NCBI GenBank assembly: GCA_029378245.1
Contig: JARKIF010000214.1
Span: 1-49,863, forward strand
Direction: 5' to 3'
Length of the DNA: 49,863 nt
From: Roridomyces roridus
Lineage: Eukaryota; Basidiomycota; Agaricomycetes; Agaricales; Mycenaceae
Part shown: positions 4,779 through 12,333 of the stretch, piece after piece
How positions within the stretch are numbered: position 1 is the first letter of the stretch
Layout: each line of letters opens with the position of its first letter
Translations under genes and position numbers: made by a program
Notes under the pieces: model-generated
Databases searched by the model: none
What the model saw: the letters and a program-made list of their open reading frames with translations, nothing else
Told to the model about the DNA's origin: nothing

Positions 4779-5640
4779 CCAAAATACAATCTCTCCTTGT
4801 CCGAGTGTTCATCTGCTATTCGAACACGTTGCTGTCTGGGGTTACACTGGAGGCAAGCTTAAGCCCACAATAAACGCGCCCGTTCACCGCCCGGCCACCC
4901 GGGCCACACCGACGTGCTCGTAGGTGCGTTGTGCGATCAAATCCAACGACTCGGAGATGGTGTTTGAGAAACTGCTGGATATGAGCGCAGTGGGGTTGGA
5001 CACGACCACGATGAGTATGGACATGGCAAAGGGCGGATGCTGCAGGCCGTGTCGGTAATCAGCTCCAATAGATCCTCACGCTCTTTCAGCCACAATAGAG
5101 AGCATGTCCTGTGTAATCCAAATTACCAAATGTTGAACGAGGGTGAGCGTATAGGGAACGCACCCAATGTTGTTCGCTCCTCGACAAGCCTTGCTCACTG
5201 CTCATTGCTCCCTCCGGAAGTTTCGGATATCCGACCACACGGTGTTATTATTGTAAGTGTCAGGACTGGAATTTACTGAGGCTGGACGCAAGCAAGGGAC
5301 GCGGTGGGTAATCGGCGCCGCTTCAGTGAATCAGCAGCTGAGGCCAGATCCATGGTACGAGAGATTTGCGATGAGTCGATTCGGCAGGCTTGCAATAAAA
5401 CCGACGCTGAGCAGTAGAGATAAACTAGAGCCAGCGTAGATGCATTCTGTGCATCACTGCATGGGCAAGCATGGGGTTATCGGCAAGCTTCGGTGACCAA
5501 ACTTGGACCAAACGTGCGGCGGCCGGGCCACATCAAACATCGCAACCCAAAACGGAGTGGAGCAGCCTGCGCCCGAAAAATTCATACGGGCTCCTCTAAT
5601 GCATAGGGCATATATCCAAGGTTTCGTTGCTGTTAAATCA
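4779..5640. other. Intergenic, no supported gene
   Basis: About 860 bp without a convincing gene. A minus-strand frame near 4920-5060 reads a short hydrophobic-to-mixed stretch (MSILIVVVSNPTALISSSF) but ends after about 46 codons and has no recognisable continuation. Confidence 0.4.
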
Positions 5641-5726
5641 GCCACCTTGGCTCAATGGATCATGATAGAATTCGGTCCAAGAACGGCGGGCTACTCCCGC
5701 CGGGGGTTCGATTCCCGGAGGTGGTC
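5641..5726 (+). other. tRNA-like element with pol III A and B boxes
   Basis: GCCACCT at the 5' end pairs with AGGTGGT at the 3' end as a seven-pair acceptor-like stem. A box TGGCTCAATGG (5648-5658) matches TRGYNNANNNG and B box GGTTCGATTCC (5705-5715) matches GGTTCRANNCC. Between them lies a perfect 7 bp hairpin (CGGCGGG/CCCGCCG, 5684-5702). A T-rich tract follows downstream. I could not fold a normal D-arm or assign an anticodon, so it may be a tRNA pseudogene, an unusual intron-bearing tRNA, or a diverged relative of the repeats at 12731 and 24641, which share the words GCTCAATGG, CATGAT and AATTCG. Confidence 0.5.
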
Positions 5727-6471
5727 GGGCATGATAATTCGCCCAGGGGCGTTAACACGTGGTGCTCTGACGTCCCGCAAATCCTTTCTTCTTTTTCTTC
5801 TTCTTCATTCCTCGTCTTATTTATGTAATTTACCATGGCGTTGCGATTTGTGATTCACCATTGGAGGTTCTCTCCCAATTCATTGTCATTCCAATAGAAA
5901 ATGAACTCAAGCCTTGGAAGAGAGGAACTCCATTACAATTTCACTAACCCTGGGATCGACCTTGTTCAAAATATCCAGCGTATCCTCCTGGAAAATATCA
6001 GCCTCTTTCTCCTCAAGCCAATGGCCACTCACCCAAATCAGACCTTCCGCCTTCTTTCCGTCGGGCGAAAGCACGAAATCACTAACCTCCTTGACACAAG
6101 ATCCAGAAATATACTCTCCACGAAGCGCGAATTCATTCTCATCTGCGAGGGCGGCCCAGACGAGCTGCCTGCTGCCGACTTCCGTTCTGAAGGCTAGCAT
6201 GAGTTGCATGAGATGGTCGACGGAAGCGCGCAAACCAGTAAAGTCGCGACGGAGTTCGGAGTAGCAGTATCTGTAGAGTGAGGTTGATTCTTGGTGGACG
6301 CCATGGAAGAAGGGAACGTGCCCCGGATTCACGGCGTTGACGACGATAGAGGAAGAGAGGCGCGAGTTTAGAGCACGAATGAAGAAAAGGTTGAGAACTG
6401 CAAATGGCCATTGGAATGCTGTGAATTGGAAGAAAGAAAGGACATACGCTTTGTGATAGGGTATCTGAACT

Positions 6472-6480
6472 GTATCGTCT
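6472..6480. repeat. Target-site duplication, left copy
   Basis: GTATCGTCT is identical to 10146-10154 and directly abuts the element's left inverted repeat. Nine base pairs is the usual duplication length for Mutator-like elements. Confidence 0.9.
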
Positions 6481-6569
6481 AGAGCCGAAAATTGGAACGG
6501 AGAGTGACAACCAGATCGGGAAGTGCACCAACGTTGACCAAACAATCCCAGAATACGGCGCAAGCGGCA
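6481..6569 (+). repeat. Left terminal inverted repeat of the MULE
   Basis: Imperfect inverted match to 10058-10145. In order, both ends share GAG at the tip, AATTGGAACGG, GGAAGTG, ACCAA, GACCAAA and AAGCGGCA, with conserved spacing. The region between GG and GGAAGTG is 18 bp at both ends. Confidence 0.85.
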
Positions 6570-6664
6570 AATTGTGATGCGGATCAAACGGCTCAATCGC
6601 TCCTTAAAATTTCTCCAAGTCCACCGACAGCTACAGAAATACAATACGAGTATTATACAACAAA

Positions 6665-8645
6665 TCAAGAGCCCTGCGGCGGTTGGTACATTACAAATTC
6701 ATGGTTAGGCTGCGTAGGATAGTTCCAATGAGAGTAGGATGTGGGTGCATGTGGGCGAGACATGGGATCGACAGACGATGACCCTGATTGAGAATACAGG
6801 AGTGGTGGCGGGTTGGGAGCAAATGGTAAGGGTACGCGGGAATGCCAGGTGGCGGGGACCGTCGTTGGGACGATCAGTGGCGGCGGTGGGGGTGGAAGGG
6901 CAGGAGGCGGCCTAGTAGAGAACATCAGTTTGAGGTACACAGAGAGAGAGATACAAGCACGCACGCGGGGGCCTTCCTGGGCTGTTTCGGCGCCTTTCCT
7001 CCACTCCTCTTCCCACCTCCGAACGCGTCATCCGTGTCCTCGCTCACGTCCTTCCGTTTGTGACCTGTCTTGACCGCGGGAACACCGGGAGTCATAGACT
7101 GCTGGGTTGCCGACCAACCTGCCTTGGAATTGGGGGCCACGAAAGTCGCAGTCGGCAACACCGATGTGCTTTCTGTACCAGCGAGCATAGCGTCGACGGC
7201 GGCCTCGAGCATGTCCAGCTCCTGCTGCGGTAGGTTCTTGGAGCTCTGGCGCAGGCGTCCCGTCAAGCGTTCCATCTTCTGGACTAGATTCGTGACTCTG
7301 GATTGGGGTCGAGAGGGTGCGGTACGGATGGTGGCAGGGACAGGGAGGAGAGCTGTGGGTGGTGGCGCCGGGGATCTGTCAACGTCCAACGTTGACAGCG
7401 CTTGACTCCGAATGTCCTCGGTCCCAAACAGTCTTTGCGTCGCAGCTAGGTGCTCGCAGAACGAGAGCTCGGTGTAGTCGTCACAGTCGCAGTTGTACTC
7501 CTCAAGATTGACCTTGAACAAATCCGTCGTGTCCGGTGGCATGACCAGGTACAAGCCGTCTTCATCAGACCAGTCGACGCAATCTGGGGCCGTGTACGAT
7601 TGGGCAGCGTCACGTATTGCCTGATACTCCCGGGCTTCGGCTTCCGGCCCTTCGAGTAGTTGCTGAGCTGCACAAAGATGCTTGCAATACGAGACGGCTG
7701 GGAACGCGGGGCAGGTACACTTGAGGGTCCGTAGATCGACGTGATACACCTTTGAGGCGTTGTTCTTCGATGTCACGGCGTACAGGGCACCGACGCGCTT
7801 GAAGTCGGCGCTGGCAAAAATTTGGCTCTGCTTGATGATCTCGTCGCGCTTCTTCTCCTCGAGGTTCTTCCCTTCGAATCCGAAGAGACATCGGCGTTGC
7901 CTGAGCTCGTAGTACTTGACAACTGAAGTCGTGAGGACGTGGAGGAGAGTGTCGATGCGTCGATTCCGCCGGTTTTCCAGAAACTTGCCCTTGAGAACAT
8001 GGTGCCAACTGGAAACTCGACGTCAGAGACAGCACATGCGGCAGACAAGGAAGCACCTTTCGACATGCATGTTGGTGTCGGAGTTGTCCAGATCTCCTGG
8101 GCCGAAGTCTTCTTACGAGCCAGTGCTGCGATAAGCTCCCGTGTCTTCTTCGACATCCGAACGTATGGAAGGTTGGCTTCGTTGGTCGGATGATTGTGCT
8201 CCTTGACGTACTTGGCGAGAACGGTGCTGACTCCAGGGTAGGTCTTCACCGTAAGGCAGCATTTACAACCGATTCTCTTGGGACCTAGTTTTCTTTGACG
8301 ATTGGGGTGCTTCTTCTTGTACTTCTTGCTGTCGCAGGAACCAGCACGAGAGCAAATGAACCGGATCCTCTTCTGAAAGTGCGGCATTCCTTTTGTCGTC
8401 CCGTCTCGCCGAAATTCGATGCAATTGACTTCCGATTCTTGTTCGAGCCACTGCTCAAAAGCCTCCCAGTCATCCCATCGCATGGTGTATTCGTGATTGA
8501 GGGAATCGGAGTCGAAGGAGCCAGGGTAGGGGTTCGTGTCGAAGGTGAATAGCTGGGGTTTTGGGGACGGAGCACTGGGAGAGTCGCAATTATCGGAGGT
8601 GAATGGGTTTGGCGCCACGCGGAACGTATTCATGAACATTTCCAT
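6665..8645 (-). pseudogene. MULE transposase with DDE core deleted (FAR1-like and SWIM fingers)
   Basis: The N-terminal part (8645 to about 8117) has a FAR1/WRKY-GCM1-like finger: Cys residues in RFICSRAGSC and GCKCC, and HNH in VKEHNHP, then TRELIAALAR. The C-terminal part resumes at LDNSDTNMHVESWHHVLKG, the region that follows the third catalytic acidic residue in MULE transposases. It continues with a basic RRNRRID helix and two SWIM fingers (CTC...YCKH and CDC...FCEH), then a Pro-rich tail. Introns at 8056-8009 and 6964-6912 look normal. The roughly 250 residues expected between the halves, containing the DDE domain, are absent and the frame breaks at about 8097-8116. A 20 bp segment there starts GTAAG and ends CCCAG. 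Removing it would restore the frame, but it is far too short for a known fungal intron. It may bind DNA but should not catalyse transposition. Confidence 0.8.
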
Positions 8646-8879
8646 CTTGGCGAGCTTTCCTGCTGGGCGGGAGACGATGTTGCGAGGTATGAGGGAGAAG
8701 ATGGTGGTCGTCGGTGATCAAGCCATAAGGATCACCTGATCGTTTCTCGTCGCCGCTTTGCGCAGAGTAAAGTGAAAGATGTCGTATTCCAGGTACATAT
8801 CCACAAAGCTACGCTAGTTACAAACCGACTGTATTGTATATATTGATAGAGTAAAGGGAGGCAGGTCGAGGGAAGGTCA

Positions 8880-9895
8880 TCACGGGCTAATGGAGATATA
8901 CGGGATGGGGGAAGTGGGTTGGTAACGAACGCGCTGGGTCGGGGAGGGAGGAGGAGGAGCGTGTCGGGCACGCTTGCGAGGCGGAGTTGCAGGAGCCTTG
9001 GCCTTCTCGTTCTTGGATGCCGCTCGCTTAACGCCAGTCTCCACTTTCTTGATCCCACCAATAACTTCCACCTCGCCATCCGCCCACGTCTGGCAGATCA
9101 CCTCAACTTCGTCTTCATCGTCATGGTCCTGCGCCGAAGCGATCAGCTCAGCCAACTGGCGGTCGGCCTGCTCCATCGCACGCCGTATCGCGCGTTCTTG
9201 AGGAGTCAGGTGTCCGAGCGCGGCGACGTAGGCACGGTTTATCTCGAGTCCTTGACGGAATTCGGTGGATGAGGACGTAAGGGCAGTATCCAGGTGGGGG
9301 AGAAACGGAGGGTTTGAGGAGGGTGAACGCGAGGAAGATGACGAGGTGTTGGAAGAGGAAGAGGAAGATGCCCGCGAGGTAGATGAAGATGCAACGTTGG
9401 GAGAGAACAGGGGAATACGAGTGCGAGGGCGGATGGAAGGTGTCGATGGAGCACGAGCATTGAGATGGGTGTCGACGCCGAACGACGCCGTGGTAGAGGA
9501 AGTCGGAGCTCGCCCAGCTGCGTGTGCAGGCACTGCGCATTCTTCGCCACTCACGCGGCGAGTGCAGCATTTCTGGCACTTGCGAGCGATACAAAGCTTG
9601 TTTCGAGGGCGTGTGAGACAGCTAGGGCAGCGGTCTGGCTGCTGCTGGGGAGGCGGGCGCGCTGATACTGCCTTCGTAGTCACAATTGGGGCTCTCAACG
9701 CACGCGGCGCGCCAGGCTCGAAGTAGTCCCAAAATCGAGTACCATCCGCATGCGACGCTACTCGAGTGCACTGCAGAACAGTTAGATCGACCCACAGGAA
9801 GCGCGAGGACGACAGACCAGAAGAAATGGGCGACCGGTCGTCGTTTCGTGCTGCACAGCGAGAGGCTGGTTACACCGAGGACAAAAATAAGGCAT
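8880..9895 (-). CDS. Cys-rich accessory protein carried by the MULE
   Basis: The minus-strand start is at 9895. The N-terminus (MPYFCPRCNQPL, then a TTTGRPFLLVC segment and another Cys) resembles a GRF-type zinc finger. A short intron or lesion near 9740-9785 interrupts the frame before a GTRFWDYFEP segment. A second module follows: CPSCLTRPRNKLC, KCQKCC and a later Cys. Next come a Ser-rich linker and a C-terminal region with LTPQERAIRRAMEQADRQL and a basic Pro-rich tail. I recall similar CxxC-rich proteins near DNA transposons in agaric genomes, but the function is unknown. The exact splice near the GRF-like segment is unresolved: a 39 bp excision keeps frame but removes a Cys. Confidence 0.55.
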
Positions 9896-10057
9896 GGCGA
9901 GGTATTTGTGGCGGGAGCAAAGGGCGAGACACAAAGTGTGAGGCTGAAGAGGGAGCAGGTGGGCGAGGAAGGAGGAGGAACGCGATGGGAGGAGGGGAGA
10001 AGCAGCTGACGCAAGCAACGGCAGAGTCGGCGGCACAGGAAGAGCCATCAGAGGGCC

Positions 10058-10145
10058 TGCCGCTTAGCTGAAGGGGGGTGTATTTGGTCTCAGTTTGGTT
10101 CACTTCCTCATCGGGAAGGTGTGACCCGTTCCAATTGCAAACTCG
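10058..10145 (-). repeat. Right terminal inverted repeat of the MULE
   Basis: Inverted partner of 6481-6569. Read on the minus strand it begins CGAG, then CAATTGGAACGG, GGAAGTG, ACCAAA, GACCAAA and AAGCGGCA, in the same order and nearly the same spacing as the left end. Confidence 0.85.
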
Positions 10146-10154
10146 GTATCGTCT
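10146..10154. repeat. Target-site duplication, right copy
   Basis: GTATCGTCT, identical to 6472-6480, directly abuts the right inverted repeat. Confidence 0.9.
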
Positions 10155-10849
10155 CAGGTGTACAGTGCTCTGCGCTTCCAAGTGTCTTGATAACCTGCGA
10201 GTTTTGTAGTACATTTTTGTCGAGTGCAGCCCAGTAGTGCATCAGAGTCGAAACTATAACAATTCGCGGGGTCGTGCCGTGTTCTTTCGCGGTTTGCATC
10301 ATCGAAGGGAGGAGGAGGAGCGCAAGAAGAGAGGTGGATAGGTGGTTGACTTGCAGACTGCCAACGCGTTATCGAATAAGATTTGCCACTGCGAGGATTT
10401 ACGCACCTCGACTCCCAGCCATCCTTTGTGGCTTCGTACGCGGCAGTACCAATACCAGCGTTGGCGACAAAAACATCCAGCCGGCCTCCATCCTGCTCGA
10501 ACTTGTCCACAAATTTCCGAACCGAGTCAAAATCCGCGAGGTCCACAATCCAGAGCTCGACTCGTTTGAATCCCGTTGAAGCCTGAATGTCTATGCCGCC
10601 GGTTCTCGCGTCGAACGCATAAAAGACGAGTTCCTACTTACTTTCAACTGCCACCTGACCCTTTGACCGATTCCTACACGCGAGAATGAGCCGCCCGGGG
10701 TTCATGGACGCAAAGTGTTTCGCCGCTTCAAAGCCGAGGCCTGTGTTGGCGCCAGTGACGAGGATTGTCTTGTCTGTGATGTCGGCTTTGAGGACTGCAG
10801 GCTGAGGTGTCCATTGGTCTCGAATGAGATCCCAGATTCCGTATTTCAT

Positions 10850-10991
10850 GGTGGCAAGAGGAAAAGCTGCATCGGATCAAAGATGCGCTTACGAAACCTG
10901 ATCCGTCTTTCGTTCCCTCGGGCGGCAACGTTCAGCCACACCGACGTTATAATGAGTACACGTACGCCTTGGACCCACACTCGTTGCTGCC
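10850..10991. promoter_or_regulatory. Shared head-to-head promoter of SDR-A and SDR-B
   Basis: Only 142 bp separate the divergent start codons (10849 minus, 10992 plus). Both start regions have an in-frame MK-GIW peptide start, so this is the axis of an inverted duplication and presumably a bidirectional promoter. I see no clear TATA box on either side. Confidence 0.5.
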
Positions 10992-12333
10992 ATGAAGTCT
11001 GGCATCTGGAACATGCTAAAGACACAATGGGCGCCACAACCCCCCGTTCTTCAAGTCGATCTGACTGGCAAGACTGTCCTTGTTCTGGGGGCGAACACTG
11101 GGCTTGGGTTTGAAGCAGCGCAGCACTTTGCGCGTATGAATCCCGGGCGAGTTATTTTGGCGTGTCGCAGCCAGAGCAAGGGCCAAGCGGCTCTCGAAAG
11201 TAACTCCAATTCTGTTCATTGTTCAAGTGCGAGACGGCTAATGGGCTGATTCGATGGACAGAACTAAAAGCTGCGACTGGCTATGAGCAGGCAGAGCTCT
11301 GGATCGTCGACCTAGTTGATTTCGAGTCGGTGAAGAAATTCGTAGACAAATTTGAACGAGACGGTGGGCGGCTGGATATCCTTATTGCCAACGCTGCCGC
11401 TGCCACGTTTACCTACGAGGCCACCAAGGACGGCTGGGAATCGAGGTATGTGTTGTTTTAGTTGCTGTGGATTCACATTCTAATCGACTCAGTCTCCAAG
11501 TTAATTATCTCGCTCCCTCACTTTTAATTCTCCTTCTGCTTCCCGTCCTTTTCAAAACGGCCGAGGAACACACCACAGTGCCTCGGATCGTCGTAGTCTC
11601 AAGCATGATGCATTACTGGCTCGAGATCGAAAAACCCGTCTCAGAAAGTCCCGAAATAATCCAGACTCTCGGGAAGGCCGAGTATTGTACTCCCAAGTCT
11701 GATTCCACTTTCTATTCTCAATCTTTCAAGTTAACTTTGTGGCAGGGCTATGGGCCCGCGGTACGCTCTAACGAAACGTAATATCTTTTGAATGCACAAA
11801 TGACAATAGCTGAAAATGGAGTATACAGTCTTGAATATCTTCTTTGTCCGTGCCTTGGATGCGCATCTCCCGTCTTCGCCCTCCCTCGTTGTCGATGCCG
11901 TTTGCCCCGGGTAAGAACTGTCTTTATAAAAATTCAGATATCCACCACTCACGAGAATGCAGGTACTGCCGCTCCGAACTCCGTCGAGTCCTCAGCGGCT
12001 TTGCAGCGTTTTTCGATCGTCTCATGGAGCTCGCTCTAGCGTTTACCACAGAGGTAGGCAGCCGACAACTCGTCTGGGCTGCACTCGCCGAGCAAGACCA
12101 TCCCGAGAAAATGCGCGGGCAATATGTTAGTGGTTCGCGTGTTCAAGAGGTCAGCGATTTTGTGCTATCGCCTCAGGGATCCAAGGTGCAGGATCTTATT
12201 TGGGTGAGTTCAATTGAACACCTCCGAGCGTATATTGCTGAAGAAATTATAGCAGAACACGCTGGATATTCTCTGCGAGGTCGATGATAGGGTGAAGGCA
12301 ATCGTAGACAATTACCTCTCGTCGTCAGCTTGA
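10992..12333 (+). CDS. SDR-B: short-chain dehydrogenase, retinol-dehydrogenase-like
   Basis: Exons 10992-11199, 11262-11445, 11493-11696, 11746-11777, 11829-11910, 11963-12203 and 12253-12333 give 343 residues. The Rossmann cofactor motif reads LGANTGLG (32-39) and the catalytic pair is Tyr205/Lys209 in YALTK. VVVSSMMHYW carries the expected catalytic Ser. Two motif positions are unusual against SDR-A and the family: Thr32 is Leu, and the structural NAG reads NAAAA. The protein may still bind cofactor, but activity is uncertain. Relative to SDR-A it has an extra 49 bp intron (11697-11745, weak donor GTCTGA) after YCTP. It is divergently paired with SDR-A and is the only intact copy. The substrate is unknown. 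Confidence 0.85.

Follow-up and report, generated by a model that had tools for sequence, protein, structure and literature searches.

Within the window (the whole stretch of 49,863 nucleotides that was analysed, contig C129 of a Roridomyces roridus assembly), two genes on the minus strand lie between two copies of the 9-bp sequence GTATCGTCT, and on either side of these copies stand the halves of one predicted SDR gene, here called SDR-A. The features of the locus are as follows.

5910..6472, minus strand: 3′ part of SDR-A, starting with QFRYPITK and carrying a predicted YxxxK motif; no Pfam match on its own
6472..6480, plus strand: left copy of the target-site duplication GTATCGTCT
6481..10145, minus strand (both genes): Mutator-like element of 3,665 bp, non-autonomous, without transposase core; same ends at the C257 and C112 sites
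6481..6569, plus strand: left terminal inverted repeat, imperfect, its outermost 9 or so bases unlike the right end
6928..8645, minus strand: remnant of a transposase gene, FAR1 part upstream and SWIM part downstream (public model of the C46 copy: P0003)
about 7450-7491, minus strand: second SWIM finger, C-D-C...C-E-H
7666..7746, minus strand: first SWIM zinc finger (PF04434), a profile match
8091..8092, minus strand: deletion junction; a further 933 bp, with the MULE domain PF10551 among them, stand here in the C257 copy
8184..8369, minus strand: FAR1 DNA-binding domain (PF03101, E 1.9e-6), residues 117-178 of the reading
8880..9895, minus strand: gene 2, predicted protein of 322 aa with a cysteine-rich N-terminus; intron proposed at 9817-9771
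10058..10145, minus strand: right terminal inverted repeat, containing a 41-bp piece at 10097-10137
10146..10154, plus strand: right copy of the target-site duplication GTATCGTCT
10147..10849, minus strand: 5′ part of SDR-A, in pieces 10849-10640, 10582-10406 and 10350-10147
10992..11796, plus strand: SDR-B, the neighbouring divergent gene, first part of the gene only

Ends of the element and the gene it splits

An earlier, sequence-only reading of this DNA had proposed a 9-bp duplication and imperfect terminal inverted repeats, and both are there. The duplication GTATCGTCT is perfect at 6472-6480 and 10146-10154 (the window holds it twice on the plus strand and once on the minus strand), and an alignment of 6481-6569 with the reverse complement of 10058-10145 gives inverted repeats that are imperfect and about 88 bp long, the outermost 9 bp or so being unmatched. 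The element thus delimited measures 3,665 bp, or 3,674 bp if one duplication is included. Taken alone, the inverted repeats are of modest, moderately unusual significance, being imperfect and differing in their outermost bases: their semi-global score was equalled by 4 of 5,000 control shuffles and by 7 of 9,924 segment pairs drawn at random from the window, and their local score of 55 was also the maximum of a 1,000-shuffle control, the maximum in a repeat with 3,000 shuffles being 46. The boundaries are settled because independent copies on two other contigs, C257 and C112, share the exact ends next to other 9-bp duplications, beginning and ending at the bases that match 6481 and 10145, just as had been proposed for the window. 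The 41-bp piece of the right end, searched with up to three mismatches, occurs at four places in the assembly (three sites, one of them on two haplotypes), and the same piece reversed, as a control, at none.

Read on the minus strand, the SDR-A frame runs through ...SAEHCTPETI up to 10147 and is taken up again by QFRYPITK from 6472, and the uninterrupted SDR paralogue reads EYCTPEMMQFRYPVTK, in one frame SAEYCTPEMMQFRYPVTK. Two such paralogues (at C46:1496390 and on C104), which are 92% alike to 5558-6480 and 91% alike to 10148-10943 and are not alleles, are unbroken across the site and contain GCATCATCT once. The disruption of an SDR-like gene, another point of the earlier reading, is confirmed by the HCTPETI and QFRYPITK halves and by the paralogues running through them. 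YxxxK is the catalytic motif of SDR enzymes, and with YPITK standing at the insertion, the element lies three codons ahead of the predicted catalytic tyrosine. The 5′ frame of SDR-A continues for 12 codons into the element and then meets a stop; the split protein would end there, before the predicted tyrosine and lysine, and would presumably be inactive. As a lone exon, exon 1 of SDR-A gives only a weak match to PF00106 (adh_short, E 3.3e-4), below the curated cut-off.

Two further observations concern the surroundings of this gene. A second SDR stretch, whose similarity to the window's SDR-A/SDR-B stretch is 77-92%, lies on C46 about 98 kb away (L040, C46:1492500-1501500) and another on C104 (L041), which makes this a duplicated SDR cluster. 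A tRNA-derived SINE at 5600-5850 was considered and rejected, as no tRNA was predicted anywhere in the window by ARAGORN, set to the bacterial code; apart from itself, this stretch matches its C46 allele and the SDR paralogues and nothing else.

Sister copies and their empty counterparts

The genome search proposed by the sequence-only reading was carried out on the 90.8-Mb assembly, whose 501 contigs may miss copies, and it did find more of them. The element occupies three sites, namely that of the window (also present on C46), C257:346637-350462 and C112:1902660-1902960. The C257 and C112 insertions each have their own perfect 9-bp duplication (GCCACGATG and AGTCGTGAG, respectively), and identical ends are therefore found at three insertion sites with three different perfect duplications. 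C304 is an empty counterpart of the C112 insertion, with AGTCGTGAG once and 0.5 kb on each side 99-100% alike, and C471 is an empty counterpart of the C257 insertion, with CATCGTGGC (the reverse complement of GCCACGATG) once and flanks 95% alike; judging from these flanks, C304 and C471 would be the other haplotypes of the two sites. Since both sister insertions have empty counterparts, the family is likely to have moved recently.

About 0.4 kb beside the C257 insertion (L011, about 2189-2610) is also absent from C471, and hence another change happened there; this stretch matches other places of the genome at 71-78% and is possibly another insertion. The C112 insertion, for its part, lies inside a repeat (L012, 1160-2460), and the seven other copies of its left flank, 99-100% alike, run into the right flank without the element.

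At the window site, the insertion is present on both haplotypes: C46 carries it too, and its collinearity with the window is seen both at 6 kb and at 44 kb. What had earlier been read as an insertion is one, without being private to this contig, and the empty state of the site is seen in the paralogues only, not in an allele. The window and C46 copies of the element have 5 differences in 3,668 aligned bases, and the C46 haplotype shares the core deletion of the window copy; between the window and C257 copies there are 15 differences in 2,904 aligned bases plus a 3-nt gap (99% identity). A separate transposon of 6,045 bp is nested in the C46 copy (L009/L010, C46:1398941-1404985), at the allele of window positions 6903-6905. 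It has a Plavaka transposase frame (PF18759, E 1.9e-89), is flanked by the 3-bp repeat GGA and is absent from the window haplotype.

No undamaged copy of the element was seen in the assembly searched. The window and C46 copies are without the core, the C257 copy is without the stretch corresponding to about 8552-9315, where the transposase gene starts and gene 2 ends, and the C112 copy is without nearly everything, being a 301-bp remnant in which one end is left with 32 bp and the other with 272 bp (3 bp shared). Autonomy would be putative for any member of this family, no complete copy having been seen among the 501 contigs. The deletion junctions of the three copies share 1, 0 and 3 bp (0 in C257 and 3 in C112), which says little about the repair pathway.

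Shorter relatives of the terminal inverted repeats (TIRs) are found in the same genome. Among the element matches listed, at least eleven more cover the right end, and these belong to elements of 474-1010 bp with both ends (L013-L023). At their predicted ends, a perfect 9-bp duplication stands at zero offset in 11 of 11, and random placements, with 81 offsets allowed for each, reached 9 of 9 once in 2,000. L022 and L023 show the same insertion (their flanks are identical at 500/500 and 498/500 bases), which brings the sites to 10. These relatives are like the element in their asymmetric ends, AGA... and CGA..TTGCAATTGGAACG, and in their 9-bp duplications, but are unlike it in that their TIR matches are only 73-85% identical; none of the 8 genome places of PF10551 falls in L013-L023. 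By their sequences they form a putative separate non-autonomous family of MULE type. The TIR search was given 17 loci, of which 11 had matches, and the six loci fetched for MULE or SWIM matches (L024, L025 and L042-L045) had none.

The two genes of the element

Pfam search of the pieces encoded by the window copy found FAR1 (PF03101) and SWIM (PF04434, E 4.6e-5, two stretches) only, and no MULE domain. The spliced reading of the C257 copy, on the other hand, has the MULE domain PF10551 (E 1.7e-9, 38.4 bits with the cut-off at 27.6) in addition to FAR1 and SWIM, and one of the 8 places of PF10551 in the genome scan (C257:348441-348638) falls within the sequence that the window copy lacks. The 933 bp peculiar to C257 encode IDATHN and SDFDWAQ, and the second aspartate is nearly invariant in an alignment of ten rows. 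Read from its first internal ATG, the C257 copy still spans FAR1, MULE and SWIM; its public model, P0002, starts downstream of IDATHN. FAR1 and SWIM of the window copy are in different frames after the junction. Because its transposase remnant is without the MULE catalytic domain, the window copy is unable to encode a complete transposase, and so is non-autonomous. The cargo genes of the sequence-only reading, one of them a FAR1/SWIM transposase, are thus to be accepted as far as the two genes and the FAR1 and SWIM parts go, and not as a complete transposase, the MULE core having gone with the 933 bp.

In P0003, as the C46 copy is modelled in the public record, FAR1 and SWIM are brought into one frame by way of the splice donor GC/GTGTGC, which in the window haplotype reads GCATGTGC. 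A single-base difference between the haplotypes at window position 8037 (minus strand; GCGTGTGC on C46 against GCATGTGC in the window) removes this donor. If the model is right, a core-less FAR1-SWIM protein may be made from the C46 copy.

The two SWIM fingers of the transposase align to each other, and none of the 8 alignment rows from outside the element's family has the second. The best-scoring proteins outside this genome are SWIM-type proteins of Mycena venus, 47-49% identical, and the number of solved structures matching the transposase alignment was 0.

Gene 2 has a public model, P0001, which starts upstream of the start proposed here and has 373 aa. No Pfam family was over the cut-off, and in the protein database, in a search that needs shared 5-residue words, the sole match was the C46 allele. 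Across the genome, protein search gave 7 matches, all in element copies on C46, C129, C257 and C112. Gene 2 is, by prediction from its sequence, an orphan cysteine-rich protein, with an N-terminus that may resemble GRF-type zinc fingers; AlphaFold of P0001 alone gave a mean pLDDT of 45.9 and a pTM of 0.22.

Discussion

Mutator-like elements (MULEs) generally have target-site duplications of 8-11 bp, according to the part of PMC6446971 that deals with them. Here the duplications have the typical 9 bp at three sites as well as in 11 of 11 TIR relatives, and the long terminal inverted repeats, about 88 bp and imperfect, have the same ends at the three sites. PF10551 is present in the C257 copy and not in the window copy, and no single copy seen here has the complete transposase gene of an autonomous MULE. 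The window copy counts as a MULE, in the form of a non-autonomous derivative, on account of its ends and of being 99% identical to C257. The Mutator-like identity given to it by the earlier reading can be upheld on the strength of the ends, the 9-bp duplications and the MULE transposase domain of the family's C257 copy.

By domain make-up, the closest known group is Hop (group 35), likened to the element by listed domains and not by tree. The sections of PMC6446971 concerned describe a Hop sub-group including Basidiomycota, with SWIM among the zinc fingers, FAR1 in half, TIRs of 30-220 bp and one ORF listed; the present element differs from this sub-group in having two genes and two SWIM fingers. 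A second gene of its own is a feature that it has in common with Mutyl of Yarrowia (MutB), in what PMC6446971 gives on that element. Maize MuDR, with mudrB, is another such MULE. Gene 2, unlike any known family in the Pfam and protein searches, is set beside MutB and mudrB by gene content and not by sequence. Proteins of Mycena venus, Exidia, Panaeolus and Phanerochaete (P0004-P0007, P0010, P0012 and P0013), with SWIM-type names and precomputed MULE or ZSWIM RNaseH-like domains, are 38-48% identical to the C257 transposase; they are without the second SWIM finger in the alignment and are known here as proteins only, not as elements. A search of the available literature turned up no description of this element.

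We hold it to be very probable that 6481-10145 is a core-less Mutator-like copy which came into a predicted SDR gene, likely by cut-and-paste, and which now needs the transposase of another copy. Such a transposase would bind the ends of about 88 bp through its FAR1 and SWIM parts and would cut by its RNase-H-like MULE domain, and faulty repair after excision may produce the internal deletions; the window copy would be mobile only with a transposase supplied from another copy. One might argue instead that nothing was inserted, the paralogues having lost the stretch and the 9-bp repeat being there by chance, given that the SDR paralogues are 91-92% alike and are not alleles. However, sites unrelated to this one show the same ends, each with a 9-bp repeat of its own and with an empty counterpart, and this idea retains next to no probability. 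The element could also be a vehicle of gene capture (a Pack-MULE), with gene 2 above all as the captured host gene. Two genes do lie inside, and gene 2 is without a transposase domain, but its companion is what remains of a transposase, and the searches revealed no donor for gene 2, whose 7 genome matches are all in element copies and whose one database match is the C46 allele. Gene capture is rejected on these grounds, as very unlikely.

The order of events is less easily decided. The element could have landed at full length under its own transposase and lost its core afterwards, at the window site, which we find quite possible, if somewhat less probable than its opposite. MULEs are known to suffer internal deletions in place while a gap is repaired, and the same core deletion in the C46 haplotype fits a loss after the insertion but before the haplotypes parted. 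Even so, the shared C46 deletion fits loss of the core before insertion too, and damaged copies exist at the C112 and C257 sites as well.

Whichever way the core was lost, the core-less copy in the SDR gene belongs to a base-level record of Mutator-type transposition in a mushroom, with three sites, empty counterparts and derivatives ranging in size from 3.7 to 0.3 kb, and with a host gene interrupted where its active site is predicted to be. In public databases the parts go under ‘hypothetical protein’, and the two transposase pieces under ‘SWIM-type domain-containing’; because of such names, the transposon and the disruption both stay invisible in gene counts. The element is ordinary in kind, a member of a known superfamily, well documented and with a few unusual parts, two of which (gene 2 and the doubling of the SWIM finger) offer leads on the workings of fungal MULEs.

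It is tempting to speculate further, improbable as we consider it, that this is a two-gene Agaricomycete MULE lineage in which the orphan cysteine-rich partner and the tandem-SWIM transposase are working parts, and in which a core-less FAR1-SWIM protein would bind the ends and repress the active transposase. In Drosophila, P elements are repressed by the truncated KP protein. As regards such a repressor, a gene model predicted for the C46 copy has FAR1 and SWIM in frame, and the window haplotype has lost the donor by one base.
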